Below, one piece after another: positions 18,240-45,976 of a DNA stretch of 64,000 nt. Each line of letters begins with the position of its first letter. Position 1 is the stretch's first letter. Source of the stretch: Oscillibacter valericigenes (GTDB lineage Bacteria > Bacillota > Clostridia > Oscillospirales > Oscillospiraceae); contig NZ_JAFBIQ010000002.1 in assembly GCF_021531315.1 (NCBI RefSeq), forward strand, positions 1 through 64,000, written 5' to 3'. Under the pieces are notes generated by a model that saw nothing but the letters and a program-made list of their open reading frames with translations, searched no databases and was not told where the DNA came from. Made by a program: the position numbers and the translations under genes.

Positions 18240-18315
18240 CCGGGTGTAGCGCAGTTGGTAGCGCGCATGGTTCGGGACCATGAGGCCGTGGGTTCAAATC
18301 CCGCCACTCGGACCA
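18240..18315 (+). tRNA. tRNA-Pro (anticodon CGG), CCA encoded
   Basis: A full cloverleaf is visible. The acceptor stem is CCGGGTG with CACTCGG (one G-T pair), the anticodon stem CATGG/CCATG encloses loop TTCGGGA, so the anticodon is CGG, and the T stem GTGGG/CCCGC encloses TTCAAAT. Discriminator A and an encoded CCA follow. CGG reads the CCG proline codon, which is frequent in this GC-rich genome. It has its own consensus promoter and a long hairpin downstream. Confidence 0.95.
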
Positions 18316-26758: not shown

Positions 26759-26790
26759 TTCCGTTCCGTCTCCTCTTTTGACCTCTAAAA

Positions 26791-26806
26791 ATGACAGTCC
26801 TGTCAT
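26791..26806. promoter_or_regulatory. Palindromic operator candidate upstream of the GGDEF gene
   Basis: ATGACAG and CTGTCAT form a perfect 7-bp inverted repeat with a two-base spacer, 33 bases upstream of the GGDEF start codon. The half-site resembles the ATGACA half of the TetR operator candidate, but a link is unproven. Confidence 0.4.
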
Positions 26807-26898
26807 ACCGTTCGGCGTCAAGCGAACCGTCCGCCTTCGCCGTAAAAAAGTGTAAAAAACGCAAAAAAATGGGCAGCGTTGGCCACTGCACATTACGC

Positions 26899-30158: not shown

Positions 30159-30197
30159 ACGATATAAATAAAAATGATGAAAAGGAGGAGCATTACA

Positions 30198-30551
30198 ATG
30201 CTCAAGAAGTTCACCAACAAAAAGGGCTTTACCCTAATGGAAATGCTGATCGTGGTCGCCATCATCGCGGTGCTGGTCGCCATTGCCATCCCCACCTTCA
30301 ATAACCAGCTTGAGAAGTCCCGTCAGTCCGCTGACCTTGCCAACGTTCGTGCGGCCTATTCAGAGGCGGTCGTAAAACAGCTCAACGGGGAAACGCCTAC
30401 GGCAACAACTCCGAAGATGCAAAGTGACAGCTGGGATAAAGTCGACAAGACAATAAAAATTGGCGGTAAGAATATTACTGCCATCACGAAGACGAAGGAC
30501 GCTGTTTTGACCATTACGGTTGGCGAGGATGGCAAGATAACTACTCCCTAA
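30198..30551 (+). CDS. pilA: Type IV major pilin, prepilin with class III signal
   Basis: This 117-residue prepilin has the leader MLKKFTNKKG and cleavage before FTLMEMLIVV, with Glu at +5 and a hydrophobic stem to about residue 38. The globular part is small and Lys/Thr-rich. It is the best candidate for the main fibre subunit because it is the shortest complete pilin, has an excellent AAAAGGAGG site, and is bracketed by hairpins. PilD next door would cleave and methylate it. Confidence 0.92.
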   Translation: MLKKFTNKKGFTLMEMLIVVAIIAVLVAIAIPTFNNQLEKSRQSADLANVRAAYSEAVVKQLNGETPTATTPKMQSDSWDKVDKTIKIGGKNITAITKTKDAVLTITVGEDGKITTP

Positions 30552-30648: not shown

Positions 30649-30736
30649 CTCACCCATAAGATAGAGAAAAGGGGGTGGCCGAGGGTTGGCGGCCATCCCC
30701 AGCGAAGGAATATATTCCAAGAAGGAGGAAACCAAA

Positions 30737-31519
30737 ATGCCGCGCCTGTCTCCGTTCATCACCGTTTACTGCTGCACGGTGGCGGCCCTGCTGGGCGCCT
30801 GCACGGGCAGCTTTTTGGGCTGTCTGGCGTGGCGGACTGTCCACGGGGAGTCCGTTCTCCGGGGCCGCTCCCACTGCGACGTCTGCGGCCATACGCTGGG
30901 CGTCCGGGATTTAGTTCCGGTGTTCAGCTATCTGTTCTCCGGGGGCAAATGCCGCTACTGCGGCGCGAAGCTCTCCACCCGCCATGTGTGGGGGGAGCTG
31001 GTTTCCGGCGCGGTGTTTGTGACGCTGCTGCTCCGATATGATATTTCGCTCCAAACCCTTGAAGGGTGGCTGCTGGCCTGTGTGCTGCTGGCCTGCGCCT
31101 TCGCGGATCTGGAGGGGTACATCATACCCGACCGCTTTCTCGCGGCGGGCGTCGTGCTGTTCGCCGTGACGCTGCTGATCGAGCCGGAGCCTTTTCACCG
31201 TCTGACGGACGGGCTGCTGGGCGGCGTGGGCGTGGGCGGCGGACTGCTGCTGCTGTCCCTTTACATGGACAAACGGCTGAAACGGGAGACGCTGGGCGGC
31301 GGCGACGTCAAGCTGCTGTTTCTCACCGGGCTTTTCTTCGGCTGGAAAGGGAACCTGCTGTGCCTGACCCTCGCCTGCGTGGCGGGGATCGTGTGGGGCC
31401 TTGCCGGAAAACGGCGGGGCGAGGCCATCCCGTGGGGGCCGTCCATCGCCGTCGGCGCGTGGATCACCGCCTTGGCGGGGCAAATGTTTATCGACTGGTA
31501 TCTGGGTTTTTTCGCCTGA
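30737..31519 (+). CDS. pilD: Prepilin peptidase/N-methyltransferase PilD
   Basis: This 260-residue polytopic protein has the cytoplasmic zinc site CxxC at 47/50 and 72/75, typical of bifunctional enzymes, and the two catalytic aspartates Asp124 (ADLEGYIIPD) and Asp190 (GGGDVKL). It cleaves class III signals of the five prepilins encoded here and methylates their new N-termini. The ATG at 30737 follows AAGAAGGAGG; longer in-frame starts lie in the hairpin region. Confidence 0.95.
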   Translation: MPRLSPFITVYCCTVAALLGACTGSFLGCLAWRTVHGESVLRGRSHCDVCGHTLGVRDLVPVFSYLFSGGKCRYCGAKLSTRHVWGELVSGAVFVTLLLRYDISLQTLEGWLLACVLLACAFADLEGYIIPDRFLAAGVVLFAVTLLIEPEPFHRLTDGLLGGVGVGGGLLLLSLYMDKRLKRETLGGGDVKLLFLTGLFFGWKGNLLCLTLACVAGIVWGLAGKRRGEAIPWGPSIAVGAWITALAGQMFIDWYLGFFA

Positions 31520-31550: not shown

Positions 31551-32558
31551 ATGGGGAAGATCGTAGGCTTTGAAATTGGCGATCACAGTGTCAAGCTGGT
31601 ATATTTTGCCGGAAAGGAACTGAAAAAGGCGGTGAGCGTGGCGCTGCCGGACGCGATGGTGTCCAACGGGCGCATTTTGTCCATGGACGCCATGGCGGAT
31701 TTTCTGCGGGAGGCGGCAAAGGCCAACGGCATCCCCTCGGGGGGCGCGGCGCTGACCCTCTCCGCCGCGGACGCCTTCACCAGAGACGTGACGGTGCCCG
31801 CCATGACGGAGCAGCAGCTGGCGTACAACCTGCCCTTTGAGTTCCACGACTTTCTGACGGAGGAAAAGAGCAAGTATTTCTTCGACTATTCCGTGCGGGA
31901 GGTGCGCAGAGACCCGGACGGCTACCCCCTGGAGATGGATCTGTTCGCCTGCGCCATGCTGAAGGAGCGGGTGGAGGCCTACCGGGCCATGTTCCGCCGG
32001 GCGGGCTTTAAGCTCAAGGTGCTCACGCCGCTGGAGACCGCCTACGGCGCGCTACTGACGGAATACACCCGCCGCACCGGCGCACCGGAGATCGGCCGCT
32101 GCGTGGTGGACCTGGGCCATCGCGGAACCCTGATGCACTTCCTGCAAGGCGGCGAGTGCGTGGGCGTCCGGGAGATCGATCTGGGCCTTGCGGAGCTGGA
32201 TCAGCGCATCGCGGAGGAAATGGGCGTGGAGATCCATGCCGTCCGGGACTATAAGCAGAGCAACTTCAACGGCGTGCTGGATACGGAGTATGCCAAGGAG
32301 TTTTACAGCCGTCTGGCGGTGGAGATCATGAAGGCCGTCAACTTCTACCACTACAACAACCGGGAGCGGGAATTGGAGGAGCTGTATCTCTGCGGCGGCG
32401 GCGCGGCCATCCGGCCCCTGCGGGAGACCATCGCCGCGACGGTAAAGCTGAAGGTCAAGGGCGGCGAGGAGCTGCTGGCCGACGGGATGCGTCCCGCCGA
32501 GGAGCCGTGGCTGTATCTGCGGCCCATCGGCGGCGTCTGTGAGGGAGGATTGAAATGA
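31551..32558 (+). CDS. pilM: Type IV pilus assembly protein PilM (actin-like)
   Basis: This 335-residue protein begins MGKIVGFEIGDHSVKLVYF and has the FtsA/PilM-type phosphate loops (VVDLGHRGTLMHFL; LYLCGGGAAIRPL). PilM is a cytoplasmic actin-like ring protein that binds the N-terminus of PilN. The start at 31551 has AGAGAGGA upstream and fits the family; upstream extensions overlap pilD. It overlaps the next gene by four bases. Confidence 0.9.
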   Translation: MGKIVGFEIGDHSVKLVYFAGKELKKAVSVALPDAMVSNGRILSMDAMADFLREAAKANGIPSGGAALTLSAADAFTRDVTVPAMTEQQLAYNLPFEFHDFLTEEKSKYFFDYSVREVRRDPDGYPLEMDLFACAMLKERVEAYRAMFRRAGFKLKVLTPLETAYGALLTEYTRRTGAPEIGRCVVDLGHRGTLMHFLQGGECVGVREIDLGLAELDQRIAEEMGVEIHAVRDYKQSNFNGVLDTEYAKEFYSRLAVEIMKAVNFYHYNNRERELEELYLCGGGAAIRPLRETIAATVKLKVKGGEELLADGMRPAEEPWLYLRPIGGVCEGGLK

Positions 32559-33226
32559 TTTTGGAAAAAGAGCGGGAGGAAGTCACCTCCGAGGCGGAGC
32601 AGCTTGCAGACAGCGTGTCCAACGAGGCGGCCCCGGTTGAGACTGCCCCCCGGAAAATGGTGAAATGCCCCAGCAAGACGGGCATCAATATGAACCAGCG
32701 GGAAAAGCGCACCGGACAGGTGCTGACGCTGGTGATCGGTCTGGCGGTGATCCTGCTGATGGCGGGTCTGGTGGCCCGGTTCGGCGTGATGGAGCAGTAC
32801 CGGCGTCTCTCCGAGGCCCAGAGCGCCTACGGCGAGGTACATAGCCAGCTTGCGGCGTGTCAGGAAAAGCTGACGGATTACGAGCTGGTGCTGACGGAGT
32901 ACCGCAGCTGCTCACTGGACGGCATGACGGAGGGCGAGGATCAGTTGATCACGGTGTCCCGTCAGGCGGTGCTGGATCTGGTGGAGGGCATTATGATGCC
33001 CCGGGGCAAGGTGATCTCCGTGAATATTTTGGATGATACCGCCGACGTGGAGATGTCCGGCATGAGCTTGGATCAGATCTCCACCATGTTCGCGGTCATG
33101 GAGGCGGAGCCCATCGTGCGGAGCGTGGAGCTGAACATGGCCGCCACGGAGGAAAATACCGCGTCCGCGCAGCTGAACTTCTCCGTGCGGATCTATCTGG
33201 GGCCGGAAAGGGCGGTGGAGGAATGA
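32555..33226 (+). CDS. PilN-like pilus alignment protein
   Basis: This 223-residue protein has an unusually long cytoplasmic N-terminus (about 50 residues), one TM segment (about 53-75, VLTLVIGLAVILLMAG), a coiled coil and a C-terminal alpha/beta domain of the PilN type (GKVISVNILDDTADVEMSG). Recognition rests on its place between pilM and a PilO-like gene and on topology; sequence identity to PilN looks low. It overlaps both neighbours by four bases, so translation is coupled. Confidence 0.75.
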   Translation: MILEKEREEVTSEAEQLADSVSNEAAPVETAPRKMVKCPSKTGINMNQREKRTGQVLTLVIGLAVILLMAGLVARFGVMEQYRRLSEAQSAYGEVHSQLAACQEKLTDYELVLTEYRSCSLDGMTEGEDQLITVSRQAVLDLVEGIMMPRGKVISVNILDDTADVEMSGMSLDQISTMFAVMEAEPIVRSVELNMAATEENTASAQLNFSVRIYLGPERAVEE

Positions 33227-33765
33227 ATCGGGAACTGACAAAGCGGGAAACGGCCATGCTGCTGTTTCTGTTGATCCTTGTCATCGCGCTGGGCTATTTT
33301 AAGCTGATCTTCGAACCGATTCAGGATCAGACGGCCCGGTATCAGAGCGATACGGTGCAGGAGCAGAGCGAGCTGGAGCTGGAGCTGGTCCGGCTGGATC
33401 AGATGCAGAAAATGCAGCGGAAGATCGACGAGGTGCGCGCCTCCGGCGAGGAGCGGACGATCCCCGAGTTCGACAACAGCGGAAAGCTGATGCTGGATCT
33501 CCACCGGATCTTAGGTACGGCGATGGACTACTCTCTGGACTTTTCCCAGAGCACGACCCAGAATAACTACGTTGTCCTGCGGCCTGTGACCATGAGCTTC
33601 CAGACCCGCACCTACGCCCAGGCCCGGGCCATTGTGGACGCCCTGAGCGAAAGCGAGAATATGAACCAGATCTCCGATCTGAGCATCCGCATGGATGAGG
33701 GCCGCGAGGGCGCGTCCGTGCGGACGGATCTGGTCATCACCTATTTTGAAGTCATTTTGAAGTGA
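33223..33765 (+). CDS. PilO-like pilus alignment protein
   Basis: This 180-residue protein has one N-terminal TM segment (about 12-30, LLFLLILVIALGYF), a coiled coil rich in Glu/Leu/Gln, and a C-terminal ferredoxin-like domain (VLRPVTMSFQTRTYAQARAIVDAL). Length, topology and position after the PilN-like gene fit PilO. No pilP or pilQ follows, consistent with a cell without an outer membrane. Confidence 0.78.
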   Translation: MNRELTKRETAMLLFLLILVIALGYFKLIFEPIQDQTARYQSDTVQEQSELELELVRLDQMQKMQRKIDEVRASGEERTIPEFDNSGKLMLDLHRILGTAMDYSLDFSQSTTQNNYVVLRPVTMSFQTRTYAQARAIVDALSESENMNQISDLSIRMDEGREGASVRTDLVITYFEVILK

Positions 33766-33800: not shown

Positions 33801-36800
33801 ATGAAAAACAGGGCAAAATGGAACAATACAAACGGCTTTACACTGTTGGAAATGATGGTGACGGTCGTGGTCATCGTCGTTCTGTCTGCCTTGGCCATGA
33901 TCCCCATTTCCAAAATGCAAAAGGACATCCGCCAAACGGAGCTGGACAGCCGGGCGGAGATGATCTTTACCGCCGTGCAGAACCGGATGACCCGGCTCCA
34001 GGCGGCGGGCCAGAGCGATGTCTATAAAAGCGGCAGGAAGGGCGTCAAGGAACTGACGAGCGATTCCGTGGGCGCGGAGGATAACGAGCAGAGAACACTG
34101 GTCTATGTGACCTCCGACAGCAAGGCTGACACGGATTCCGCTGCCGCTTGGCTCTACCCGGAAACGGAGGCCGAGGCGGAGCTGTGGAACGGTCATTGGG
34201 TGGTGGAGTACGACGCGGCGGGCGGCAGCGTGTACGCCGTGTTTTACAGCAAAGAGTCCATGAGTGATTACTCTGCGCAGGAGCTTAACAACCTGCGGTA
34301 TCGCCCCAACCGCGTCAGCGAGGGCGCGAAAATCGGCTACTACGGCGGCGATTCCGTGGGCGCGGCGGATACCGACAGCCTGAGCCTTACCGTGGAGGTC
34401 ATCGATCAGGAGAAGCTGCTGGTGCGGGCCGTGTGTAAGAGCGTGGGGCAGATGAAACCGACATTTCGCGCCACGGTGAGCGACGAGTCCGGCCATACCG
34501 CCGAATTTGCGTTTGCCGACGACCTGCGGCAAAACCTGAGGACCTATACGGTGACGCTGACGCTGGATGATCTCAGCGAGGGAAAGCGCTTCGGTGAGCA
34601 GGATCGTTTTGCGAATTTGATCCCCGGCGAAAACTTAACGGTGAAGATCCGGGCAGATGTTTCCGGCAATTTGATTTTGGGCGCGGAAGAAACCGTTTCC
34701 AATATCAACAGCCTGTTCGCGGAGGTTCGTGAAAACGGGACTGGCCGGACGGCGGTGATCAAATACGGGCGGCATCTGCAAAATCTGGAGCTGGAAAACT
34801 CCGGGTTGAAAAAGGAAGAAGACACCAACAAAATCATCACCGCCGCGGTGCAGGAGCGGGATATTTCCTTTGGCGCAAGCTCAAGCTGGGCCCATGAGTA
34901 CGATGACCGGAAATTTACGCCCATCGAAAACACTCAACTCAAAAGCTATGACAGCACCAGCGGGACATATCACCCGGTGATCTACGATCTGACGGTCAAT
35001 ACAACCGGCGACACAACCGGCGACGCGGGCCTGTTCAAGACCTTTGCCGGTGAACTGAAAAATATCCGTCTGGTCGACGCCAAGATCACCGGCAAGGGAA
35101 CTGTTGGTGGTCTGGTTGGAAAGCTGACCGGTGAGACAACGATCGACGGCTGTCAGGTGTATCTGAAGAATGTCAAAAAAGGACTGGATAAGGACAAAAT
35201 CTTTGATGAGCACACGCGGATCGGCGGCACCGTGGCCGGCGGTCTGGTGGGCAGCACAGAGGGAAAAACGCTGAAGATCCAAAACAGTCTGGCCGCCACG
35301 GTCATCCGGGGCGGGGCTTATGCCGGCGGTTTGATCGGCAACGGAGAAGGAAAGCTTACCGTGGAGGGTTCCTACGCGGACTGCTATATTTCCAGCAACG
35401 GAAAAACCGGCGGACTGATTGGCAGCAGATTAGGGGCCACCCTCGAACTTGCTGTTAAAAACTGCTATACCGCCGGATTTCTGGAGGGCAAGACCACGGC
35501 GGGCCTTGCGGTGTGTGATCTGTCCAGCAATACGCTGGAAAATGTATACAGCGCCTGCGCGACGCTGAAGGGAGAAAGCCTGACATACGGAACGGCACAC
35601 AAAACAAGCGGCACTTCGGGAAACGATGACATAAAGAAGGTGTACTACCTCAGCGAAACAGAGAATGAAACCGACACCATCGGTACGAGGATGGACTATC
35701 AGAAATTGAGCACCGCAGACCCGGTAAAACTGCTCTCTGCCGATTTCACCAAGCAGAACGGCGATACCCATGCCTACAACCTGATGAGCGGTCTGGGTCT
35801 GAGCCAGTATTCCTATCCCAAGCTGAAGGAGCTGCCCCATTACGGCGACTGGCAGGCGAAGTTTGAGGACAAAGCGCTGGTGTACTACGAGCGGTACGGC
35901 GAGACTGACTACGGTTTCTTCGGCGCCAACATTTCCGCCCTGTCCAAAACCGGTGCGGTGGGCGACGGCTACGGCATGATCTACGAGAAGCTGCCGGAGA
36001 CCGATGTGACGGTGACGGTTGGCAAAACGAAGTATCCCCTGCCAGTCGGCGGGGCAAAGAAAATCAGCGTCACTGACAAGAACGGTGCACGGAAGGACTA
36101 CTACCTGCTGCCCCTGCCCAAAGAGCTGGTGCAGGAGGTCGATGGGGTGCCGCAGGTCGATGGCAAACCGGGCTTTTACACAAAGCTGACGGTGGATGGA
36201 AAAGACTATTATTACAATCCCCATTTCGCCAGCACCGCCGTGACAGACGGCACGGAAAAGCCCACGCAGATCCATATTCGCACGGCGCGGCAGCTGTACG
36301 CCCTGAGTGAATATTACGACGAATATGTGAAGATCCTGCCTGATAGCGTAGACTTCCAACAGGAGTGCGACATTGATTACGCGACCTATGACTGGGCAAC
36401 CTACGGTAAGGGCGGGAAAGCGGTCACGGAGCAGAAGCCCATCGGACAGACGAAAGACGCTCCCTTTAAGCACAGCTATGACGGCGGCGAGCATATCATC
36501 ACTCGCACAGGTACGGATGGCCTCTCGTTTGTCGGCGAGGTCGGCACAGAGAGCAGCACCGCCGTCGGCCTGTTCGGTTTTGTGACGGGAACGCTGGAGA
36601 ACATCGTCGTGACAACGGATCAGGCGCTGAAAACCGCCCCCACTTCCAGATTGGGCGGCAGCGTCCAGCGGAGAACGGTGTATATCGGCGTGCTGGCGGG
36701 AAAAAACAGCGGCACGATCAGAAACTGCGCCGTTTCCGGCTACAAGCTCTCCTGCTACGCTTACAGCGGAAGTACCTGCTATATCGGCGGTCTGGCGGGT

Positions 36801-39800
36801 TACAATGAAGGAACGGTCAGCGCTTGCAGCGCCGCCATTCCCAGCATTTCCGGCAACACCACCAACGCCCGGGGCTACTATGCCGGCGCGCTGGCGGGCG
36901 TGAACGCGGGCGGCGGCTACATCCGCCAAAGCTACGCCCTCGGCAGCATCGAGCTGCGGGAGATCCGCGGCAGCGCTGTGATCTCCGGCTTTGTGGGCGA
37001 CAATCAGGGCACCATCCGCAACAGCTACTGCGCCACGGCCCTGAGCGCCGTGACGGGTGCGGAGGTCAACGGCTTCGCGTCGGCCCACGGCAGCGTTTCC
37101 AACTGCTATTACCTCAGCGGCGGCACCTATACCTTCGCGGGAACGGTGCGCCTGTACGATTACGAGGCGGGAGCCTCTGGCGCTCTCCCCAAGACCCACG
37201 AGGAAATGAAGGAGTTGAAGCTGTCCGGCTTTAGCAAGGTGGATGAAACCGAAACCAAAAACCATCCCAATACCGAGGTGGCCGAGGGGACAAAGGCCGT
37301 GTATCCCTACGTTGGCAGCGTCAGCGGGCAGGGCAGGACTGTCCATTACGGCGATTGGCCGACCCCGGCGGACATGGGGACCGTGGGTATGCTCTATTGG
37401 GAGTATGAGGAGGGCGGCGCCAACAGCGGCTATCACTTCTCCTACATCGGTTTCACCGGAACTACCCGCAAGGAGGGCAGCAGCCTCTGCACCGCCCACG
37501 ACGACGGCGGCAGGATCACCGCCTACGGCTACGGCTGCTATCGGAAAAAGGATACCGAGAATACCGAGAAGGTCAAGCCGGATGCCACTATGGAAAACGG
37601 CACCTTCCAGCTGGGCGATGAGAATAAGGATGAGAATAAGGATGAGAATAAGGATGTGGCGGAGGCGCTGGCCAAGCAGGTGTCCGGCTATACCTTCACC
37701 TGCTATCGGACCGGCGAGGCGGGTCTGCGGCTGGAATCCTCCATTGACGCCAACGGCACATGGAAACTGACACAGGGGAGCAATACATACACCTACGCCG
37801 TCTGCCCCTTCTTCGGAGACTCCTTCTGCACAGTCGGCACGGGTCAGGATGTGGCTGACGCGGAGGACCTTGGCAAAGCGGGGACGGAAAAGCAGTACCA
37901 GATCCGCTCCGTGGAGCAGCTGCAATTCATCAACTGGAGCTATTTCAAAGGCACGGGCAGCGTGAGCACCGACGTCACGAAGGATACTTACCAAAACTTC
38001 CCCTATCTGCAATATGCCACCGTCACAGGCAAGGGGCAGCAGGAACGAGCCGACGCGGAGAAACACCGCCCCCAGCGGAGCTGGACGCAGACCCACGACC
38101 TCAACGGCGAAAAGAACGTTTCGTTCCAACCCATTGCCGGGGCCGTGGAGGCCAAGACCCAAAAGGATTGGGATAAATATAATCTCACACTGTACAACTG
38201 GTTCGGCGGCGTCTACGATGGGCAGAGCTACTACATCAAAAACATCGCCATCAACTCCTACTGCTATAATGTGGGCCTGTTCGGCACCACGGCGGGCGCG
38301 ACGATCAAAAACATCGTGCTTTACAGCGACAACGATTCTGTTATTCAGCGCACCAGCAAGCCTACCGCAAAGGATCTCTACAAGAATAACCAAGTGGAGA
38401 CCGACCCCCAAAAATACGCCACGTCCTACGCCTTGGGCGGTCTGGTGGGCATTGCCTATGATTATCAGGATAATAAGCTTGGCACGAGTACCATTGAAAA
38501 CTGCGCCATCGCGGGCTATTCCGTGCAGGATAACAGCAAGAATAAGCAGGCCTTGGGCGAGGCGGCGGTAGGCGGTCTGATCGGCGTTTCCAGCGTGAAC
38601 CTGCGGAACTGCTCCGCCGTGGTGGACATTGCCATCAACTGCACCCACTTCTGGGATAGGACGAATGTACTGAACGCCGCCGCCTATGGCAACTATGTCC
38701 GCGTAGGCGGTTTGGTGGGCGGCCTGCGTTACCGGGCGGCCAACTGCTATACCGGCGGCTCCATCCGCGTCAGCGACGATACCCTGTCCGAGCAGGTCCT
38801 CGCTGACGACAGCACATTGACAAAGCTGGTGCGGGTGGATCGGACGCAGGAGGATCACGGCAACCGGGATGTGACCGTAAAGCTGGCGGACACGAACGGG
38901 AAAAAAGATGAGAATCCCGCGACCTATGTGTTCGTAGGCGGCGTGGGCGGCAGCGGCTTCTCCGCCAACTTCACCAATTTTACCAACGCCGAAAACAGCA
39001 GCGACGGCCAGCCCTACTACGAGAACTGCTACACCTATATCGACCTGCCCGACATGGAGGGAACCATCACCGGCATCTCCATCATCGGCAGCGTGGCGGA
39101 TCGTCACGGCATAAAATCGGCGGCGGCGCTGACCGTAAAAAACTGCTATTATCTGGACAGCACGGCGAATATCTCCTTTGAGTACGCCGCCAAGTACCAT
39201 GCGAAAAGAAAAAAATCTCTCCATAACCTGCTTTATGGGGACGAAAATCGGAGCAACCGGGAAGCCATGCTGCGAGGAGACCTTCGGTTCCTGTCTCAAC
39301 ACTTATGGAATAGGACAGGGGCGAACAATAATGCCAACATGCCCATGTGGAACATTGAGAGCCTGACGCCGCTGACCTACGAGCAGATGTCGAACCGGCT
39401 CGGTCAGGAGAACTTTATCATAACCCAAAACACCCAAAACGGAAGCACGGCGGCGTACAAGACCTTCCGGCTGGCACTGAATAAAAACGAGGAAGACGGT
39501 GCCTTCGGCTGGGTCACCAATGCGGAAAACGGCTCTACGATCCACGGCAAGTACAGCTTCCCCGGCGGCGACACGGCTCTGCAAGGGCAGGATTACCCCT
39601 TCCCCACGGTGCTGACCCAAACGAACAGCTTGGGAGAGCCGGTGAACCTCCACTACGGCGCGTGGCCCAAGGTGGGTATGTTCTGGAGCCAGGGCATTGT
39701 CTCCATGGATCTGATCGCGGACTACGGCACGGTTGACACCGGCAAATCCGCCATCAAGCTGGAGCTGAACCTGAGCAACATACCCGGTACGCCGACGGGC

Positions 39801-40328
39801 GAGCCGACCTTTACTTACAGCGACGAGGGCAGCGAGAATCAGGTGGTCAAGGTAGCGGAATCGAAAGAACTCAAGACAGCGGATGGCAAGCTGGTGGGCT
39901 TTGAGGTTACGCTGGAGGGGTTGCACTCCGGCGCGTCTGAGGTGACAGCCACCTTCGACGACTATACCGCCCGCTTGATGGTCACGGTCACAGATAAGTT
40001 GACGGTGGTCTTGGAGCCCGCCTCGGTAGAACTTACGCTAAATCCGCCTACACCGCCGACCGGCGGCCCCAGTAAATCGGCCACGGTCACGCCGACGCTC
40101 GTTGACAAAAACGGCAAGGTGCTTACGGTCACTTCTTGGGAGGCCGTCAGCGCTAACACGGATGTGGCGACGTGTGAGGTCAAGACGAACAACACCATCA
40201 CGGTCACGGGTCTGAAACAGGACGAAACGCGAATCAGCATCACGGCGACCTATAAGCTGAACGGCAAGGAATACACACCCACGACGCTCCTGCCGGTGAC
40301 GGTCAAGGAAATAAGCGGCGGAGGCTGA
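33801..40328 (+). CDS. Giant prepilin-like adhesin with GLUG-type beta-helix blocks and Ig-like tail
   Basis: This 2,175-residue protein begins with a genuine class III signal: MKNRAKWNNTNG, then FTLLEMMVTVVVIVVLSA, with Glu at +5. A pilin-like region runs to about 230. Three blocks rich in GGLVG/GGLIG/GLFG units followed by N-C-Y turns (about 434-600, 920-1120, 1490-1650) resemble GLUG-repeat beta-helices. A DENK repeat (three 12-base units, 37617-37652) lies near residue 1273, and the last 200 residues look like a bacterial Ig domain. AAGGAGAAGGG precedes the ATG. Pilins are normally 100-250 residues, so this is probably a pilus-tip or pilus-displayed adhesin. The receptor is unknown. Confidence 0.9.
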   Translation: MKNRAKWNNTNGFTLLEMMVTVVVIVVLSALAMIPISKMQKDIRQTELDSRAEMIFTAVQNRMTRLQAAGQSDVYKSGRKGVKELTSDSVGAEDNEQRTLVYVTSDSKADTDSAAAWLYPETEAEAELWNGHWVVEYDAAGGSVYAVFYSKESMSDYSAQELNNLRYRPNRVSEGAKIGYYGGDSVGAADTDSLSLTVEVIDQEKLLVRAVCKSVGQMKPTFRATVSDESGHTAEFAFADDLRQNLRTYTVTLTLDDLSEGKRFGEQDRFANLIPGENLTVKIRADVSGNLILGAEETVSNINSLFAEVRENGTGRTAVIKYGRHLQNLELENSGLKKEEDTNKIITAAVQERDISFGASSSWAHEYDDRKFTPIENTQLKSYDSTSGTYHPVIYDLTVNTTGDTTGDAGLFKTFAGELKNIRLVDAKITGKGTVGGLVGKLTGETTIDGCQVYLKNVKKGLDKDKIFDEHTRIGGTVAGGLVGSTEGKTLKIQNSLAATVIRGGAYAGGLIGNGEGKLTVEGSYADCYISSNGKTGGLIGSRLGATLELAVKNCYTAGFLEGKTTAGLAVCDLSSNTLENVYSACATLKGESLTYGTAHKTSGTSGNDDIKKVYYLSETENETDTIGTRMDYQKLSTADPVKLLSADFTKQNGDTHAYNLMSGLGLSQYSYPKLKELPHYGDWQAKFEDKALVYYERYGETDYGFFGANISALSKTGAVGDGYGMIYEKLPETDVTVTVGKTKYPLPVGGAKKISVTDKNGARKDYYLLPLPKELVQEVDGVPQVDGKPGFYTKLTVDGKDYYYNPHFASTAVTDGTEKPTQIHIRTARQLYALSEYYDEYVKILPDSVDFQQECDIDYATYDWATYGKGGKAVTEQKPIGQTKDAPFKHSYDGGEHIITRTGTDGLSFVGEVGTESSTAVGLFGFVTGTLENIVVTTDQALKTAPTSRLGGSVQRRTVYIGVLAGKNSGTIRNCAVSGYKLSCYAYSGSTCYIGGLAGYNEGTVSACSAAIPSISGNTTNARGYYAGALAGVNAGGGYIRQSYALGSIELREIRGSAVISGFVGDNQGTIRNSYCATALSAVTGAEVNGFASAHGSVSNCYYLSGGTYTFAGTVRLYDYEAGASGALPKTHEEMKELKLSGFSKVDETETKNHPNTEVAEGTKAVYPYVGSVSGQGRTVHYGDWPTPADMGTVGMLYWEYEEGGANSGYHFSYIGFTGTTRKEGSSLCTAHDDGGRITAYGYGCYRKKDTENTEKVKPDATMENGTFQLGDENKDENKDENKDVAEALAKQVSGYTFTCYRTGEAGLRLESSIDANGTWKLTQGSNTYTYAVCPFFGDSFCTVGTGQDVADAEDLGKAGTEKQYQIRSVEQLQFINWSYFKGTGSVSTDVTKDTYQNFPYLQYATVTGKGQQERADAEKHRPQRSWTQTHDLNGEKNVSFQPIAGAVEAKTQKDWDKYNLTLYNWFGGVYDGQSYYIKNIAINSYCYNVGLFGTTAGATIKNIVLYSDNDSVIQRTSKPTAKDLYKNNQVETDPQKYATSYALGGLVGIAYDYQDNKLGTSTIENCAIAGYSVQDNSKNKQALGEAAVGGLIGVSSVNLRNCSAVVDIAINCTHFWDRTNVLNAAAYGNYVRVGGLVGGLRYRAANCYTGGSIRVSDDTLSEQVLADDSTLTKLVRVDRTQEDHGNRDVTVKLADTNGKKDENPATYVFVGGVGGSGFSANFTNFTNAENSSDGQPYYENCYTYIDLPDMEGTITGISIIGSVADRHGIKSAAALTVKNCYYLDSTANISFEYAAKYHAKRKKSLHNLLYGDENRSNREAMLRGDLRFLSQHLWNRTGANNNANMPMWNIESLTPLTYEQMSNRLGQENFIITQNTQNGSTAAYKTFRLALNKNEEDGAFGWVTNAENGSTIHGKYSFPGGDTALQGQDYPFPTVLTQTNSLGEPVNLHYGAWPKVGMFWSQGIVSMDLIADYGTVDTGKSAIKLELNLSNIPGTPTGEPTFTYSDEGSENQVVKVAESKELKTADGKLVGFEVTLEGLHSGASEVTATFDDYTARLMVTVTDKLTVVLEPASVELTLNPPTPPTGGPSKSATVTPTLVDKNGKVLTVTSWEAVSANTDVATCEVKTNNTITVTGLKQDETRISITATYKLNGKEYTPTTLLPVTVKEISGGG
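37617..37652 (+). repeat. Three tandem 12-base repeats coding DENK
   Basis: GATGAGAATAAG occurs three times in a row and in frame inside the giant adhesin gene. It makes a charged linker and could expand or contract by slippage without breaking the frame. Confidence 0.95.
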
Positions 40329-40395: not shown

Positions 40396-41103
40396 ATGAA
40401 AAAGGTGAAAAACAACAGCGGAGCCACCATCCTGATGGCCCTCCTGCTCATTTTGCTGGCCACGGCGGTAGGCGCGGCGGTGTTGACCGCCGCTGTCAGT
40501 GCCGCCCGCCATCTGCGCAGCGACCGGGAGGCCCAGCAGAACTACCTGACGGTCAGCTCCGCCGCGGAGCTGATCCGGGACAGCATTGCGGGGGACGAGT
40601 ATACACGGACCATGACGGAGACCTATACCAAGCACGAAGATGATGACGGGAATATAACATATACGGTCACATACAGCACTGATGTAAAATCCCCCACGGG
40701 GATCATGAAGGAGTGGCTGTCCGCCTGCATTGAAGATGGTGGAGAAAAAGACCGCTACGCCAGTTTCAAGGCTTTCAGCGATACTATCAATGTAGATCTG
40801 GAGGTCGGCAAAGGCACCAGCCTGCGGACGGTGCAGGCGAAATTTTCCGCGGAGCCGAGTACCATCACCATGGAGGGGAAGGTGCTCTACATCAGCATCA
40901 TTCAGGTGGAGCTGTCCTTGGCGCCGGAGAACGGCAAAGCAGACGACTGCCGCATGACCCTGACCATGCAGGGGAAGCTGGAAATGAAGGGAGATCCGGT
41001 TCCCCCTGAACCGAACAAGGAGAGTTACCCGTTTACCACCACGGTCAAATGGGGCTCTCCAATAATCAAAAAGGGCATTGGAACCAAGGAGGCGGGCACA
41101 TGA
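40396..41103 (+). CDS. Minor pilin-like membrane protein (PilX-like position)
   Basis: This 235-residue protein starts MKKVKNNSGATILMALLLIL, a class-III-like N-terminus in which Gly9 precedes the hydrophobic stem but the usual Glu at +5 is missing (Leu/Met region). PilX/GspK-type minor pilins often lack that Glu and start the pseudopilus tip. The rest is alpha/beta and unrecognised. AGGAGGACGATCAGG supports the ATG. It overlaps the next small pilin by four bases. Confidence 0.75.
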   Translation: MKKVKNNSGATILMALLLILLATAVGAAVLTAAVSAARHLRSDREAQQNYLTVSSAAELIRDSIAGDEYTRTMTETYTKHEDDDGNITYTVTYSTDVKSPTGIMKEWLSACIEDGGEKDRYASFKAFSDTINVDLEVGKGTSLRTVQAKFSAEPSTITMEGKVLYISIIQVELSLAPENGKADDCRMTLTMQGKLEMKGDPVPPEPNKESYPFTTTVKWGSPIIKKGIGTKEAGT

Positions 41104-41408
41104 ACAAGCTGAGAGACAACCGGGGCGAAACGCTGATCGAATCGCTGGTCTCCGTTCTGATCGCGGTGCTGGCCTTCGCGGTGCTGGCAACCTCTGTGGT
41201 CACGGCGGAGAAGATCAACGCAAAGACCCGGCAGGAACGGGCAAACAACGGAATGTTTTCCTATACGGACGCTCCGCCAAGCATCGGGGAGGTTACGCTG
41301 ACCGGCAAAAACGGCAACAGCGGCAAAAAAGTCACCGGCACGGTGTCGCTTTATGAAAGCAAAGGCTATTACTATTACAATTACAAGAAACCGGGGGTCG
41401 GGTCATGA
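41100..41408 (+). CDS. Small minor pilin with Tyr-rich C-terminus
   Basis: This 102-residue prepilin has leader MNKLRDNRG and stem ETLIESLVSVLIAVLAFAVL, with Glu at +5. Only about 60 residues follow the stem, ending in a Tyr/Lys-rich stretch (KGYYYYNYKKPG). AAGGAGG precedes the ATG at 41100. It overlaps both neighbours by four bases, which places it in a three-gene minor pilin set. Confidence 0.82.
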   Translation: MNKLRDNRGETLIESLVSVLIAVLAFAVLATSVVTAEKINAKTRQERANNGMFSYTDAPPSIGEVTLTGKNGNSGKKVTGTVSLYESKGYYYYNYKKPGVGS

Positions 41409-41893
41409 ACAAGCTGCGAGATCAAAAGGGCCTGACCATGGTGGAGCTGCTTGTGACGGTGGTCATCGTGCTGCTGTTCAGCGGCCTTGTGGCGGTGGGG
41501 GCCGACGCCGGTGTGCGGAGCTTTCGCACCTCCATGGCGGACGCGCAGGCGCAGGAGCTTTGCTCCACGTTGACCACCGCCCTCAGCGATAAGCTGCGCT
41601 ACTGCACCGTGGAGAACGACAAAAAGCGGATCTTCTTTCAGGATGTCGGCTATGTAGATGGCACCGTTGACAGCGTTTTTTCCGTGAATACCGACGGCCA
41701 GCTGGAGCTGGGCGGAAAGCGCTTTCTGGGAAAGGCCGCCTACCCGCAGGGGTTGAAGATCAAGGATTTTTCCATAAATTTTGCGGGTAATACCTTTACA
41801 GTCAGCTTTCAGATCATAAACCGGGAGGACAAGGACACCACGATGGCCTCCGCAGATTTTCAGGTAAAACGGATCAATTTGGAAGTGAAATAA
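41405..41893 (+). CDS. Minor pilin
   Basis: This 162-residue prepilin has leader MNKLRDQKG and stem LTMVELLVTVVIVLLFSGL, with Glu at +5 and a small beta-rich head (FQDVGYVDGTVDSVFSVNTD). The leader is nearly identical to that of the preceding gene (MNKLRD), pointing to duplication. It is the last gene of the pilus operon. Confidence 0.87.
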   Translation: MNKLRDQKGLTMVELLVTVVIVLLFSGLVAVGADAGVRSFRTSMADAQAQELCSTLTTALSDKLRYCTVENDKKRIFFQDVGYVDGTVDSVFSVNTDGQLELGGKRFLGKAAYPQGLKIKDFSINFAGNTFTVSFQIINREDKDTTMASADFQVKRINLEVK

Positions 41894-41936
41894 ACAGCAT
41901 TGTAACCACCAGTCATTCCGGTGGTTACAATGCTGT
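41894..41936. terminator. Bidirectional terminator-like hairpin
   Basis: A 17-bp perfect stem (41894-41910 with 41920-41936, nine-base loop) lies between the convergent pilus and hemerythrin genes. The T tract is weak on both strands. Confidence 0.75.
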
Positions 41937-41952
41937 AATCATATATTTCTGC

Positions 41953-42822
41953 TTAGAGCTTCCACGCCGAGACCGCGTAGGTGCCGTGGGTATCCTCAAA
42001 AATAAGACTGCACAACGGCGCGTAGGTCGGTCGAAGCGCCCAAAACTGTTCCCGCGTGAGAACGATGTTTTTTTCGACCTGTGCGAATACGCCGTCAGCG
42101 TAATTTCTGACAAAGTGAATGGTGATCAAGCGGTTGAGCTCCTCCAACGCGGAGCGGACGAGTTCGTCCTCCGGCTCCAGCTGCGCACAAAAGAGACCGT
42201 TCATAGCCCAAACGGCTGCTGATTCGTCCACCGCCGTCATGATGCGGAAGCGTTCGCCCTGCGGGATCCGGCAATCAATGAGCGTGTAGGTTCTGTCGCC
42301 GTCGGGAAGTGTGTCGGGGCTCATGGCCTCAAGGCTTAACTCGGCGGACTGACCGAAGAGCTCATTCACTACGGAAATGACCGTCTTTTGCATGGCGAGG
42401 GCGGCATTGTTTGCAGTCTCGCTGGGTGGGTCCTCCTTACCGATAAAGCGGTCAACGCTCTCCGTGTGATAAATGAGCGCGGGGAGCAGAGTGCCGACCA
42501 GATGCTTGATGGAGCGGGGACTGTAATCGCTGGCGACCATCTCCGCCTTCATTGCGGCGACCATTTGCACCATAGCGTCATGCAGCTCCTTATGGCGGGC
42601 ATAATGCGAGTAGCCGATCTTACGCATATAGGCTTCCTCATCCGAGAAGTGGCGGGTCACATGATCCTCGAGGAAACGGACGAGCTCCTTACATACGCGC
42701 TTGTTGCGCTCAAAGTCCTCCTCCAGCAAAATGCTCTTCAAGCGGGAGATCGCGGAGAAGAGCGCCCGGTGCTGAGCGTCCAGCTGCTCAACGCCGATCA
42801 AATAGTTTTCTTTTACAGACAT
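41953..42822 (-). CDS. Bacteriohemerythrin fused to a CheX-like C-terminal domain
   Basis: This 289-residue protein has a full hemerythrin domain at about 1-130 with the diiron ligands His18, His58, Glu62, His77, His81, His119 and Asp124 (DAQHRAL, HFSDEEA, HYARHKELH, HTESVD). It should bind O2 or sense it. Residues about 140-285 resemble CheX/CheC-type phosphatase folds in pattern (ALEELNRLITIHFVRNY), though this part is less certain. It is the last gene of the minus-strand surface operon and may feed oxygen information into chemotaxis. AAAGGAAG precedes the ATG. Confidence 0.85.
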   Translation of the reverse strand: MSVKENYLIGVEQLDAQHRALFSAISRLKSILLEEDFERNKRVCKELVRFLEDHVTRHFSDEEAYMRKIGYSHYARHKELHDAMVQMVAAMKAEMVASDYSPRSIKHLVGTLLPALIYHTESVDRFIGKEDPPSETANNAALAMQKTVISVVNELFGQSAELSLEAMSPDTLPDGDRTYTLIDCRIPQGERFRIMTAVDESAAVWAMNGLFCAQLEPEDELVRSALEELNRLITIHFVRNYADGVFAQVEKNIVLTREQFWALRPTYAPLCSLIFEDTHGTYAVSAWKL

Positions 42823-42941: not shown

Positions 42942-45905
42942 TCAGACAGCTTGCGCACGGTAAAGGAAGGTGACGATCTGCGAACGGGTACACGGCTCAT
43001 CGGGAGAGAAGGTGGTGGCGCTGGTCCCGTTCGTGATGCCGCGGGAGAGCGCCCAGCGGACCGCAGAGGCGTAGTAGGCGTTGTCGCTCACATCGGTAAA
43101 GGGTGCGTAATAGCTTGAGGAAACGAGGCCGGCGCTGCGGTGCAGGTAGGTCATGGCCTGCGCGCGGCTGACAGTCATCTCAGGGGAGAAGGTGGCGGCG
43201 CCGGTGCCGTTTGTGATCCCATTTTCGACAGCCCAGAGCACGGCTTGATAGTAGTAGCTGCCCGGGAGCACATCAACAAAGGGGGTGAGTGTGCTGCGCG
43301 GCATCGGACTGCCGGCGGCGCGCCAGAGGAAGGTCACGATCCGCGCCCGTGAGCAGGGCTCGTTTACGCCGAAGCGTGTTTGGCTCACGCCCTCGGCAAT
43401 GCCGTTATAGACGGCCCAACGAATGGGCTCGTAGTAATAGGCTGTTGGGTTGACATCGCTGAAGGGGAGAAGAAAGTCCGGCGCTGCGGCACTGATGCCG
43501 ACGGAGATCTCCACCGTTCCGGTATAGGTCTTGCCGTTTGTGCTGCGGCCGGTATAGTCGATCGTGACCGTTCCGGAAAAGCCGGTGGCTGCGGCAAAGG
43601 TCACATCGTCGATCAGGCGGCTGCTTCCGCTGCGATAGCAGTTTGCCGAGGATGAGAGCTCGATATTGCTTTTGCCGGAGACACTGTATTGGGAGTACAG
43701 CGTGCCGCGGCGCGCGGAGGGCTGCTCAAAGCGGACATAGCTCAGGCGTTCACCGATGATAGAAAGGCAGGCATCGTTGAAGTCGTCCGCGTCAAAGCGG
43801 ATATAGCCGTTCTGCGGGATCGAATAGCGCACGACCTCCGCACCGTAAGCGTTGTCCACCACAATGCGCACCGTGCCGGACCAACGGGAGCCGCCATCGT
43901 CATAGCCGCTGAAGGGGATGGACACCACGCCGGTAAAGCCGCCGGCGGGGACAAAGCACACATTGGAGACGCCGGGACTGCCGCTGCGGTAATAGCTGGT
44001 CGATGCAGAGACCTTTGAACTGCTGTAAGAGCTTGCGTAATTATAATACAGCGTGCCCTGCGAGGAGGCGGGCAGCTCAAAGCTGACGCGGCTGAAGCTG
44101 CGCCCGCGATCGCGGAGGCAAAGCTCATTGAAGTCCGCGGCCTCAAAGTATACTGCCTTGCCGCGCGTGGTGGTGTAGCTGACAACGCCGTCGTCACCGA
44201 AAACGCGGATGACCACGCGGCCGGTAAAGCTGCCGGAGTATTGATAACCGGTATAGGGGATGGTCACGGTGCCGGAGAAGCCGGCAGCGGGAACAAAGGT
44301 AATGCCCGAAATGCGCGGCGAGGAACCGCTGCGGTAATAGCGCGCAGAGCTGTCCACGCGGCTCGTGTAGCTGCCCGAGCCCGTGTAGTTATAATAGAGG
44401 ACACCCTCTGAGGCGGCGGGCAGATCGAATTTGACATAATTGAGGCTTGTGCCGTTATAGTCAATACTGGCGGCATTGAAGTCCTCTGGCTTGAAGGAAA
44501 CGCCGCGGCCAACGGTGGCAGCGTAGCTCACATCGGTGCTGCCGGTGGAGCCGTTGGCGGCGGAGACCTGAATGGTCACCTTGCCGTTGTAGGTGCCGCC
44601 GGAGCTGTCCGTGCAGCGGTAGGGTATCGTCACGGTGCCGGTAAACCCGTCGGCGGGGACAAAGCTGATGCGGTCGAGAGAGGGATTGCTGGTGATATAG
44701 TAGCGGGTGTCGCCGCGTACCTGCTGAGAAAAGGGCGCGGCGGCGCTGTAATCGTAATACAGCGTGCCCTGATAGGCGTTGGGCTGGTCAAAGGTGAGAT
44801 AGCTGATGCTGCGGCCCGTCCGGGATTGGCACACGGCGATAAATTCCTCGCTGGTGAAGGTCAGCGCCCGACCTGCGGAGGCGGTGTAGGTCACGTCGCT
44901 GTCGCCGCTGACATTCACGAGGATCGTGCCGTGGAAGGAGCCGCCGTTGGAGGCGTAGCCGGTGTAGGCGATCTCCGCTGTGCCGCTGAAATCTGACGCG
45001 GCCACGAAGGAAATGTCGGAAATGCCCTCCTGCCCGCTGCCGGGGGCGTAATAGTACTTCTCCGAGCCGCCTACGCCGTGGCCCGGTGCGTCGGCGGAGA
45101 CATAGCCATAGTACAAAACACCCTGCTTGGGGGAGACGGAAATGCTGCTGAGATAGCTGAGCGAGCCGCCGGTCTTTTCGGTGCAGCGGCTGCGCAGGGT
45201 GGAGAGGAAGGAGGAAAAGGCAAGGGGGCTGGCACCGTCCACAGAGGAGCGGATGGCCTCGGCCTCGTCCTTTTTCACGGTGACGCTGCACTCGGCGGTG
45301 TAGCCGGTGGCGTTGGCGGTGGCGGTGATGGTGGCGGTGCCCTCATAGTGGGCGGAAATGCTGCCGCCGAACACCTCCGCCACGGAGGGATTGCTGGTCG
45401 TCCACACGATGCTCTTGCCAGCGGCGGTGCCGAAGGTGGAGTAGGTCAGGCTTTCGGTGCGGCCTACCAGCAGCGTGACGGAGGTTTTGCTGAGGGTGAC
45501 GCCGGAAACCGCCACGGTGCACTCGGCCGTCTTTGTGGGATCCGCCTTTGAGGCGGCGGTGATCTTGGCCTCGCCCGGGGCCACGGCGGTGACAACGCCC
45601 TTGCCGTCCACCGAGGTCACCGTGGCGATGGAGGGGCTGGCGCTCGTCCAGGTGACGGTGCGATCCAGCGTGGTATTATAGGAATCGGGGGCGTCTGTGT
45701 CGTAGGCCACGGACGCCGTGAGCGTCAGGTTCTTGCCAACATCCAGCGCAGCGGGCGTGGACGGGTCGATCGTCACGGCGGAGACCGTGGGTGCGGGCGT
45801 GGGGGCAGTTTCGCCCTCGTCGGCATACACCGGCAGGGTCAGGGCGCAAAGCAGCGCCAGCGCGAGAACAAGGGCGCGCAGACGCGGGAGCGTGGTTTGT
45901 CTCAT
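42942..45905 (-). CDS. S-layer homology surface protein with Ig-like and cadherin-like repeats
   Basis: This 987-residue exported protein has a signal peptide (ALVLALALLCALTLPVYADEG), two Ig-like (Big2) domains (about 40-210), five repeats of about 110 residues sharing YY..Y / GISGITFVPAAGFSGTVTI-type strands (about 216-800) and three C-terminal SLH domains (about 805-985) starting FSDVNPTAYYY, FVDVLPGSYYY and FTDVSDNAYYA. SLH domains bind wall pyruvylated polymers. The start at 45905 is set by GGAGTGC and the signal peptide; an in-frame ATG at 46007 precedes a GC hairpin. Confidence 0.93.
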   Translation of the reverse strand: MRQTTLPRLRALVLALALLCALTLPVYADEGETAPTPAPTVSAVTIDPSTPAALDVGKNLTLTASVAYDTDAPDSYNTTLDRTVTWTSASPSIATVTSVDGKGVVTAVAPGEAKITAASKADPTKTAECTVAVSGVTLSKTSVTLLVGRTESLTYSTFGTAAGKSIVWTTSNPSVAEVFGGSISAHYEGTATITATANATGYTAECSVTVKKDEAEAIRSSVDGASPLAFSSFLSTLRSRCTEKTGGSLSYLSSISVSPKQGVLYYGYVSADAPGHGVGGSEKYYYAPGSGQEGISDISFVAASDFSGTAEIAYTGYASNGGSFHGTILVNVSGDSDVTYTASAGRALTFTSEEFIAVCQSRTGRSISYLTFDQPNAYQGTLYYDYSAAAPFSQQVRGDTRYYITSNPSLDRISFVPADGFTGTVTIPYRCTDSSGGTYNGKVTIQVSAANGSTGSTDVSYAATVGRGVSFKPEDFNAASIDYNGTSLNYVKFDLPAASEGVLYYNYTGSGSYTSRVDSSARYYRSGSSPRISGITFVPAAGFSGTVTIPYTGYQYSGSFTGRVVIRVFGDDGVVSYTTTRGKAVYFEAADFNELCLRDRGRSFSRVSFELPASSQGTLYYNYASSYSSSKVSASTSYYRSGSPGVSNVCFVPAGGFTGVVSIPFSGYDDGGSRWSGTVRIVVDNAYGAEVVRYSIPQNGYIRFDADDFNDACLSIIGERLSYVRFEQPSARRGTLYSQYSVSGKSNIELSSSANCYRSGSSRLIDDVTFAAATGFSGTVTIDYTGRSTNGKTYTGTVEISVGISAAAPDFLLPFSDVNPTAYYYEPIRWAVYNGIAEGVSQTRFGVNEPCSRARIVTFLWRAAGSPMPRSTLTPFVDVLPGSYYYQAVLWAVENGITNGTGAATFSPEMTVSRAQAMTYLHRSAGLVSSSYYAPFTDVSDNAYYASAVRWALSRGITNGTSATTFSPDEPCTRSQIVTFLYRAQAV

Positions 45906-45939
45906 AGGAAGGGCTGCACTCCTTTCAGAAATAAAGCGT

Positions 45940-45965
45940 GGGGGCGGGCGGTGACGCCCGCCCCC
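45940..45965 (-). terminator. GC-rich hairpin between the two SLH genes
   Basis: An 11-bp perfect GC stem (45940-45950 with 45955-45965, loop of four) followed on the minus strand by ACGCTTTATTTC lies between the two SLH genes. It may partly terminate transcription or separate the messages. Confidence 0.55.
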
Positions 45966-45976
45966 GTTGGGGAAAA

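Follow-up and report, generated by a model that had tools for sequence, protein, structure and literature searches.

A giant modular prepilin with a predicted serial beta-helix tower in the type IV pilus operon of Oscillibacter valericigenes

We analysed a 64,000-nucleotide stretch of the Oscillibacter valericigenes genome (contig NZ_JAFBIQ010000002.1, positions 1 to 64,000; hereafter the window), in which a type IV pilus operon encodes a prepilin of 2,175 residues, here called the giant. This protein is probably a modular minor pilin of a monoderm type IV pilus, placed in the complex that initiates the filament at its tip and displaying an adhesin there. Pilins that carry a grafted adhesin domain are already known as modular pilins (PMC8179133), so the proposal of a first-pass annotation of this DNA that the protein is of an undescribed kind is not supported. 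What looks new is its size, its serial beta-helix tower and the recurrence of a cassette in which it is accompanied by three small prepilins of K-, I- and J-like type (the giant-K-I-J cassette).

The giant is encoded at positions 33801-40328 (+) as a single open frame, 2,175 codons and then a stop, with a purine-rich ribosome site before its ATG; the call draws on translation, Pfam, alignment and selection. Its N-terminus, MKNRAKWNNTNG/FTLLEMMVTVV, is a class III signal with G12 before F13 and Glu5 at E17, and both the signal and the frame are as the first-pass annotation had described them. The leader (residues 1-12, 33801-33836, +) ends in NTNG, and cleavage is expected before F13 from Pfam and from a profile alignment in which F13 falls on residue 1 of mature solved pilins such as PilE1 (8pfb). 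Pfam matches to N_methyl (26.0 bits, cut-off 21.2, residues 8-33) and GLUG (26.6 bits, cut-off 20.5) lie in the one frame. The predicted mature protein has 2,163 residues, 233.9 kDa, a pI of 5.2 and 26 cysteines. Usual pilins had been put at about ten times smaller; they are indeed far smaller, the factor being 15 against a median pilin length of 144 amino acids (aa) (PMC3244431). A whole-genome N_methyl search returned six places. Four pass the cut-off, three in the pilus operon and one, a frame of 64 aa, on a different contig; two do not. Apart from the giant, none of these places lay in a frame longer than 330 codons.

A 2,147-residue relative matches the giant end to end (43% identity over residues 3-2168; 48% in another search), and an alignment with 16 relatives over residues 1-1190 has a mean column identity of 37%, with G12 and E17 invariant in 17/17 sequences. 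The same DNA holds a long antisense frame (35430-39302, 1,290 codons), which could be held to favour an artefact, the giant being a chance frame or a decayed gene; we take the antisense frame as a by-product of codon usage because the relatives match the + strand frame. For two relatives that are 85.8% identical (L071 and L072; locus numbers are ours), the ratio of nonsynonymous to synonymous substitution rates (dN/dS) is 0.20 over 2,767 codons. Together with the end-to-end homologues, this ratio contradicts a chance or decayed frame, to which we give practically no credence. By 250-codon block, dN/dS is 0.09-0.22 in the first nine, 0.29 and 0.36 in the next two, and 0.61 in the last 20 codons. 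The ratio indicates purifying selection; the whole tower appears to be maintained in this pair, and its far end to change fastest, as would be expected of a binding end, a single pair telling little. A plasmid-borne origin was rejected, there being no match in the plasmid collection.

Structure prediction by segments, which the first-pass annotation had called for, gave a helix, a head, three beta-helices and two immunoglobulin-like (Ig-like) domains. Two AlphaFold models, built with relatives, jointly cover the giant: model 1 for residues 1-1190 (predicted local distance difference test 75.7, predicted template modelling score 0.52) and model 2 for residues 1187-2175 (78.0 and 0.79, respectively). 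Because the template modelling score of model 1 is low, the model does not fix how its modules are placed relative to one another. Along the + strand, the pilin helix alpha-1 (residues 15-68, 54 residues, 33843-34004) carries Glu5 (E17) and is followed by a small pilin head at residues about 69-190 (34005-34370), for which no solved pilin matched and whose boundary is approximate. Next comes a probable FN3/Ig-like domain at residues about 191-322 (34371-34766; about 191-306 in model 1), with a Z of only 6.3-7.0 to FN3/Ig domains, and a conserved RHLQNL motif at residues 324-329. Three GLUG beta-helix modules follow: module 1 (residues about 323-684, 34767-35852; 7uvk, Z 23.3 over 206-669), module 2 (685-1186, 35853-37358; 3n6z, Z 27.3 over 776-1183) and module 3 (1187-1955, 37359-39665; 7uvk, Z 21.4). 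The first two end in HYGDW and the third in HYGAW (residues 680, 1182 and 1951). The charged repeat linker of the earlier description was recovered as a DENK linker within module 3, GDENKDENKDENKD, encoded by the DNA repeat 37617-37656. Two Ig-like domains (residues about 1956-2175, 39666-40325) close the protein according to model 2 and its fold matches, in agreement with the Ig-like end first proposed; this end has no Pfam match, both domains coming from the AlphaFold model.

Fold comparison with VIA-align supports the GLUG-like beta-helix blocks of the first-pass annotation, the modules reaching Z 20.2-27.3 to GLUG proteins. The best match, 3n6z, is a Bacteroides ovatus protein titled putative IgA1 protease; the IgA1 proteases 7uvk and 6xja (Z 23.1) match the giant over about 205-670, and the region of about 1340-1942 matches 7uvk and also 6xjb (Z 20.8). 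As modelled, the right-handed beta-helix modules would resemble the non-catalytic beta-helix of the M26 IgA1 proteases. The last 218 residues resemble the tandem Ig-like domains of the S-layer protein SbsC (Z about 12), Ig domains are also what Foldseek lists for the C-terminal model, and a module-3 profile run against PDB sequences gave one weak S-layer match. Across 29 scanned proteins, the window's included, the HYGDW/HYGAW motif occurs three times in 10, twice in 8, once in 3 and not at all in 8, at positions 628-953, 1100-1475 and 1931-2248. Since only 10/29 proteins show three motifs, the three-module plan is that of closer relatives and is not universal.

As the first-pass annotation had supposed, the giant stands in the minor-pilin position within the pil operon, adjoined by three small prepilins, all on the + strand and called from sequence: a K-like prepilin of PilX/GspK type with no Glu at position 5 (40396-41103), an I-like prepilin (G/ETLIE, 41100-41408) and a J-like prepilin (G/LTMVE, 41405-41893). 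Our table covers 38 loci, that of the window plus 37 from relatives, with frames as long as 5,713 codons. In six (L037, L064, L070, L075, L077 and L096) a contig edge cuts the locus at the end of the giant; the other 32 are uncut. In a strict count, which excluded a locus's own genes as queries, counted each place once and lost the I-like query of L090 to trimming, K-like neighbours were found in 30 of the 32 uncut loci, I-like in 25 and J-like in 28. A looser count, allowing own genes and letting one place serve two prepilins, gave 30, 29 and 30, respectively. The K-like gene lies downstream of the giant in 26 loci and upstream in four (L033, L036, L038 and L083). Four loci (L036, L038, L083 and L094) have a prepilin at the expected place that fails the strict test, the flank of L088 is too short for a J-like gene, and no I-like neighbour was seen in L093. 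Core pil genes lie within the analysed DNA of 21/38 loci.

The counts exclude L027-L030, which hold the same genes as L063, L081, L069 and L073, and do not treat L031, L039, L040 and L041, which are GLUG or fragment matches, as prepilin loci. L089 is represented by the overlapping L090, and the short loci from genome searches and L098 are outside the table. The close relatives L071 and L072 were both counted; L090, L096 and L097 come from one genome and L092-L094 from another. Glu5 is absent from the window's K-like protein and from 16/16 K-like relatives inspected, and a missing Glu5 is the mark of a capping subunit (PMC9934059, PMC10191384). In known systems, assembly is initiated by a set of four pilins that sits at the tip and has a subunit lacking Glu5 as its cap (PMC10191384). 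A precedent is Streptococcus sanguinis, whose corresponding tip complex, PilA/PilB/PilC, has been modelled as containing two modular pilins (PMC9934059). Distances between giant N-terminal modules and between K-like proteins are correlated over 14 loci (r 0.66), with 0/5,000 permutations as high. Because K-, I- and J-like prepilins recur beside the giant, a tip role is favoured, which is the part of the first-pass proposal of a tip cap and adhesin that gained support.

Relatives of the giant are spread well beyond the window. In a 60-genome sample that includes the window's own genome, 14 match the full giant and, of those, 12 also carry a PilC homologue; the exceptions are one 75%-complete genome and one with GLUG matches only. 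Among 200 genomes of the family, own included, 26 have a module match at E <= 1e-12, 21 of them over at least 300/341 positions. An open frame of 1,000 codons or more is present in 17 of the 21, and frames reach 5,261 and 5,739 codons. In the class sample, 211/393 genomes match; most among the matches listed cover the signal region only, and seven genomes besides the window's, again among the matches listed, match over at least 170 positions. A contig search gave 21 loci, of which L082 (Pacebacteria) matches in the signal region only and was excluded from the family. Relatives include Firmicutes CAG:176, Oscillibacter sp. MSJ-31, Oscillospiraceae MH27-2, three Lachnospiraceae metagenome-assembled genomes (MAGs), an Erysipelotrichaceae MAG, a Coriobacteriia MAG and [Clostridium] asparagiforme DSM 15981, on whose complete chromosome pilB-T-C-A-D-M-N-O is followed by a 2,562-codon giant.

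The shortest relative, L038 (372 codons), stops just past the position of the RHLQNL motif; therefore the basic unit is a pilin plus the FN3/Ig-like domain, to which longer forms add cargo at that site. Motif-bounded modules number one in L033 (731 aa), two in L034 (1,106 aa) and three in the window giant. At the other extreme, prepilin frames of 5,713 codons (L088, G619:C53) and about 5,260 codons (L089/L090, G527:C14) lie beside other prepilin genes. To our knowledge, these are among the largest pilin-like proteins. The 5,713-codon relative has 9 + 6 stretches of Listeria-Bacteroides (InlB-type) repeats. Some single loci are also of note. Genomes G527 and G495 have three giant-family loci each. 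Downstream of the 731-aa relative, L033 1-7578 (-) holds a frame of at least 2,526 codons with a secreted-protein-like start, possibly split-off cargo. In CAG:176, the giant frame at L062 3119-10235 is interrupted close to its 3' end, giving two overlapping frames, and L098 holds an apparently unbroken copy. Two records filed as phage or viral, L098 (MT836433.1) and L083 (IMG/VR), carry giant pilin and minor pilin genes; MT836433.1 is most likely misfiled bacterial DNA, because it matches the CAG:176 K-like protein at 98%.

What follows on processing, tip position, the H seat, adhesion, ligand and the part played by the missing secretin is our inference. The N-terminal ~190 residues would be exported as the pilin part and cut by PilD after Gly12, and the 54-residue helix would pack the giant into the filament. 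Together with the K-like protein without Glu5 and the I- and J-like proteins, the giant, which by elimination would take the H seat, would form the minor-pilin complex that starts assembly and hence comes to lie at the tip. Its FN3/Ig-like domain, three GLUG beta-helices and two Ig-like domains would make up a long tower pointing away from the tip, some tens of nanometres in length if residue counts are a guide, which may bind surfaces such as glycans, mucin, fibre or other cells. The giant would in this way take the adhesive part played by PilY1 in diderms. Monoderms have no secretin pore to thread, so that there may be no pore limit to the tip cargo, whose growth would then be free; among relatives it ranges from no cargo at all (372 aa) up to 5,713 aa. 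In Myxococcus, a PilY1 carrying superfolder GFP no longer functions, and the PilQ pore may be where it is blocked (PMC7541494). A further-reaching reading, which we put forward tentatively and as somewhat less than probable, is that the giant-K-I-J cassette found in gut and rumen monoderms (Clostridia, Erysipelotrichaceae and Coriobacteriia) defines a distinct tip class, with initiator and adhesin united in one prepilin of up to 5,700 residues whose serial beta-helices are related to the part of IgA1 proteases that touches the antibody, PilY1 dispensed with, and the lack of a secretin lifting the size limit.

A number of observations weigh against a giant minor pilin at the tip. Two uncut loci, L034 and L097, have a giant without K-, I- or J-like neighbours, and a giant match is missing from 17/29 PilC-positive genomes among the 60 sampled; the pilus can thus do without the giant in some genomes. 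The correlation between giant and K-like distances may be explicable by shared ancestry alone. By family models the names K, I and J are weak: the K-like protein scores 22.7 bits to GspK against a cut-off of 130, and its profile found no pilin in PDB. At the head (residues 69-190), strands and helices are predicted, no pilin is among the listed fold matches of model 1, and the match to solved pilins is limited to alpha-1, by sequence. The FN3/Ig-like call has a Z below 8, a level that is common by the tool's own grading, and the shared beta-helix fold tells nothing of function. The absence of PilY1 comes without a working control, only Haloferax having matched, below the cut-off, in one control set. 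Finally, the 98.9%-complete window genome (G000) has no PilT, only PilB passing the T2SSE cut-off; the second-best T2SSE frame has 21.5 bits against 24.9, and the PilT of a relative matches only PilB there. Since PilT is missing, a retracting, grappling tip is not expected in this genome, and its pili may be without motor-driven retraction; in MH27-2 and C. asparagiforme, pilT sits between pilB and pilC. Other family scores are likewise low, namely GspH for the giant (20.3 bits, cut-off 80) and ComGE (16.6 bits, cut-off 49) and PilV (13.1 bits, cut-off 52.2) for the I-like protein, and Pfam on the K-like and J-like sets gave nothing or weak matches. The orphan giants of L034 and L097 may belong to a pilus whose genes lie elsewhere, or act on their own.

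Two other placements of the protein have to be considered. The giant could be a non-core minor pilin along the shaft, its tower carried sideways on a flexible hinge, as Raynaud et al. allow for a modular pilin in the filament body if the linker is flexible (PMC8179133); we think this unlikely, because linkage to a K-like protein without Glu5 in 30/32 uncut loci, with I-like in 25/32 and J-like in 28/32, is the pattern of core tip pilins, and a side load of 234 kDa would be sterically awkward. Equally, the giant might never enter a filament and instead stand as a PilD-cut surface tower anchored in the membrane by its pilin helix and passing through the cell wall. The missing PilT, the related giants L034 and L097 without other prepilins nearby, and the S-layer-homology proteins encoded close to the operon would all suit such a tower. 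It nevertheless seems improbable, as Gly-1 and Glu5 are kept in 17/17 aligned sequences, the gene lies inside the pil operon and is coupled to the K-I-J trio, and the window giant has no LPxTG sortase motif.

The best solved-structure matches are the GLUG parts of proteins named IgA1 protease, and Raynaud et al. read the prepilin-IPR011493 architecture as a predicted M26 peptidase (PMC8179133), which would make the giant a pilus-borne peptidase. The match is confined to the beta-helix region (6xja 703-1092, 6xjb 774-1091), whereas the catalytic residues of M26 are H1604, E1605, H1608 and E1628 (PMC7695701). No M26 Pfam match was found in the giant, and HExxH occurs in 2/21 giants and is absent from a close relative of one of these. 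The window giant has no HExxH, and we rejected this reading as extremely unlikely. In the M26 protease, residues 665-1070 form an N-terminal domain, a small subdomain plus a beta-helix, that binds the IgA1 Fab (PMC7695701); that the beta-helices of the giant hold secretory IgA or mucin is a very doubtful proposition. A minor pilin in the tip-initiating complex remains the reading we prefer.

Among known systems, PilB (vWA) and PilC (Ig-like plus lectin) of S. sanguinis come close, each combining a class III signal, a small pilin part and a grafted bulky adhesin part (PMC8179133, PMC9934059); this species is also a monoderm with a partner small pilin without Glu5, and its tip complex has been modelled (PMC9934059). 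Its PilB has 454 residues and its PilC 52.8 kDa, against 2,163 residues in the giant and up to 5,713 codons in relatives, and unlike them the giant has no vWA or lectin that we found, has K-, I- and J-like partners and bears a serial beta-helix tower. The HIJK complex of minor pilins or pseudopilins in type IVa pili and type II secretion systems also has four prepilins encoded together, one without Glu5, but in the cassette one member bears a giant extracellular tower, and similarity to the classical families is below cut-offs. ComZ of Thermus thermophilus, also a minor pilin, contains a beta-solenoid, and a tip location has been argued for it; in this diderm DNA receptor a single solenoid of ~380 residues lies inside the pilin sheet (PMC6561018), whereas the giant has three appended solenoids. 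With the M26 IgA1 metalloproteases the giant has the beta-helix fold and GLUG repeats in common, unlike them lacking a catalytic domain and HExxH.

PilC/PilY1 of diderm type IVa pili is a very large adhesin shown at the tip by minor pilins, as the giant would be; PilY1 is a non-pilin with a type I signal and a beta-propeller, whereas the giant is a prepilin without a PF05567 match. No PilY1 match was found in the window genome or in the 196-member class sample that includes it, in searches in which no control genome reached the cut-off. For that reason, its absence rests mainly on the description of PilC/PilY1 as absent in monoderms in PMC9934059. The first-pass suggestion that the giant replaces PilY1 is accordingly plausible, as far as searches without a control above the cut-off can carry it.

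The operon itself reads, all on the + strand, pilB, pilC, pilA, pilD, pilM, pilN-like, pilO-like, giant and three small prepilins, and is that of a monoderm type IV pilus. Pfam identifies the extension ATPase pilB (27209-28897, its start placed from MAYMRLGDLL in relatives), the platform protein pilC (28916-30124), pilA, the probable major pilin of 125 aa (30174-30551), the prepilin peptidase pilD (30686-31519) and pilM (31551-32558). The pilN-like gene (32555-33226) is called from position and homologues, with no Pfam pilN match, and the pilO-like gene (33223-33765) has a weak T2SSM match below the cut-off. A 19-pair inverted repeat at 41894-41936, recognised from sequence, is a likely terminator and marks the operon's end. 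No secretin was matched in the window genome, while control genomes did match, and this absence is as expected because the organism is a monoderm. A promoter scan gave 9 sites against 5.7 expected, and RNA control such as a riboswitch before pilB was rejected, Rfam at gathering scores giving only a tRNA at 18240-18312.

Just upstream of pilB lie genes for a PilZ-domain protein (24643-25311, +) and a GAF/GGDEF protein (25406-26893, -), neighbours that suggest control of the pilus by cyclic di-GMP. Beyond the operon, S-layer-homology proteins are encoded at 42942-46007 (-; 1,021 aa, with Big_2) and at 45977 to about 51010 (-; about 1,680 aa, start approximate), and a hemerythrin-domain gene (41953-42822) stands between them and the pilus operon.

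We found no account in the literature of prepilins above 1,000 residues, of GLUG pilins so named or of the giant-K-I-J cassette, though Dataset S1 of PMC8179133 may list GLUG pilins; the extreme example that this paper gives of a pilin with many added domains has 860 residues. PilFind requires fewer than 350 aa (PMC3244431) and therefore would miss giants, which domain-database searches would not, and this length limit may explain part of the gap. The prepilin-IPR011493 architecture raises a question of naming. We take IPR011493 to be GLUG, and if so, GLUG pilins are probably in the 2021 survey under a misleading peptidase name.

Of the functions of type IV pili, adhesion ranks with the most poorly understood (PMC8179133), and we found little in the literature on the ligands of gut Clostridia pili. 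The window giant comes from a gut-dwelling bacterial group, and a recurrent giant tip pilin would offer a defined, expressible set of domains for ligand testing, with carriers among apparent isolates: [Clostridium] asparagiforme DSM 15981, Oscillibacter sp. MSJ-31 and Oscillospiraceae MH27-2. The giants would also allow a test of whether tip cargo in diderms is limited by the secretin pore, which has been offered as an explanation for failed bulky tip fusions in Myxococcus (PMC7541494).

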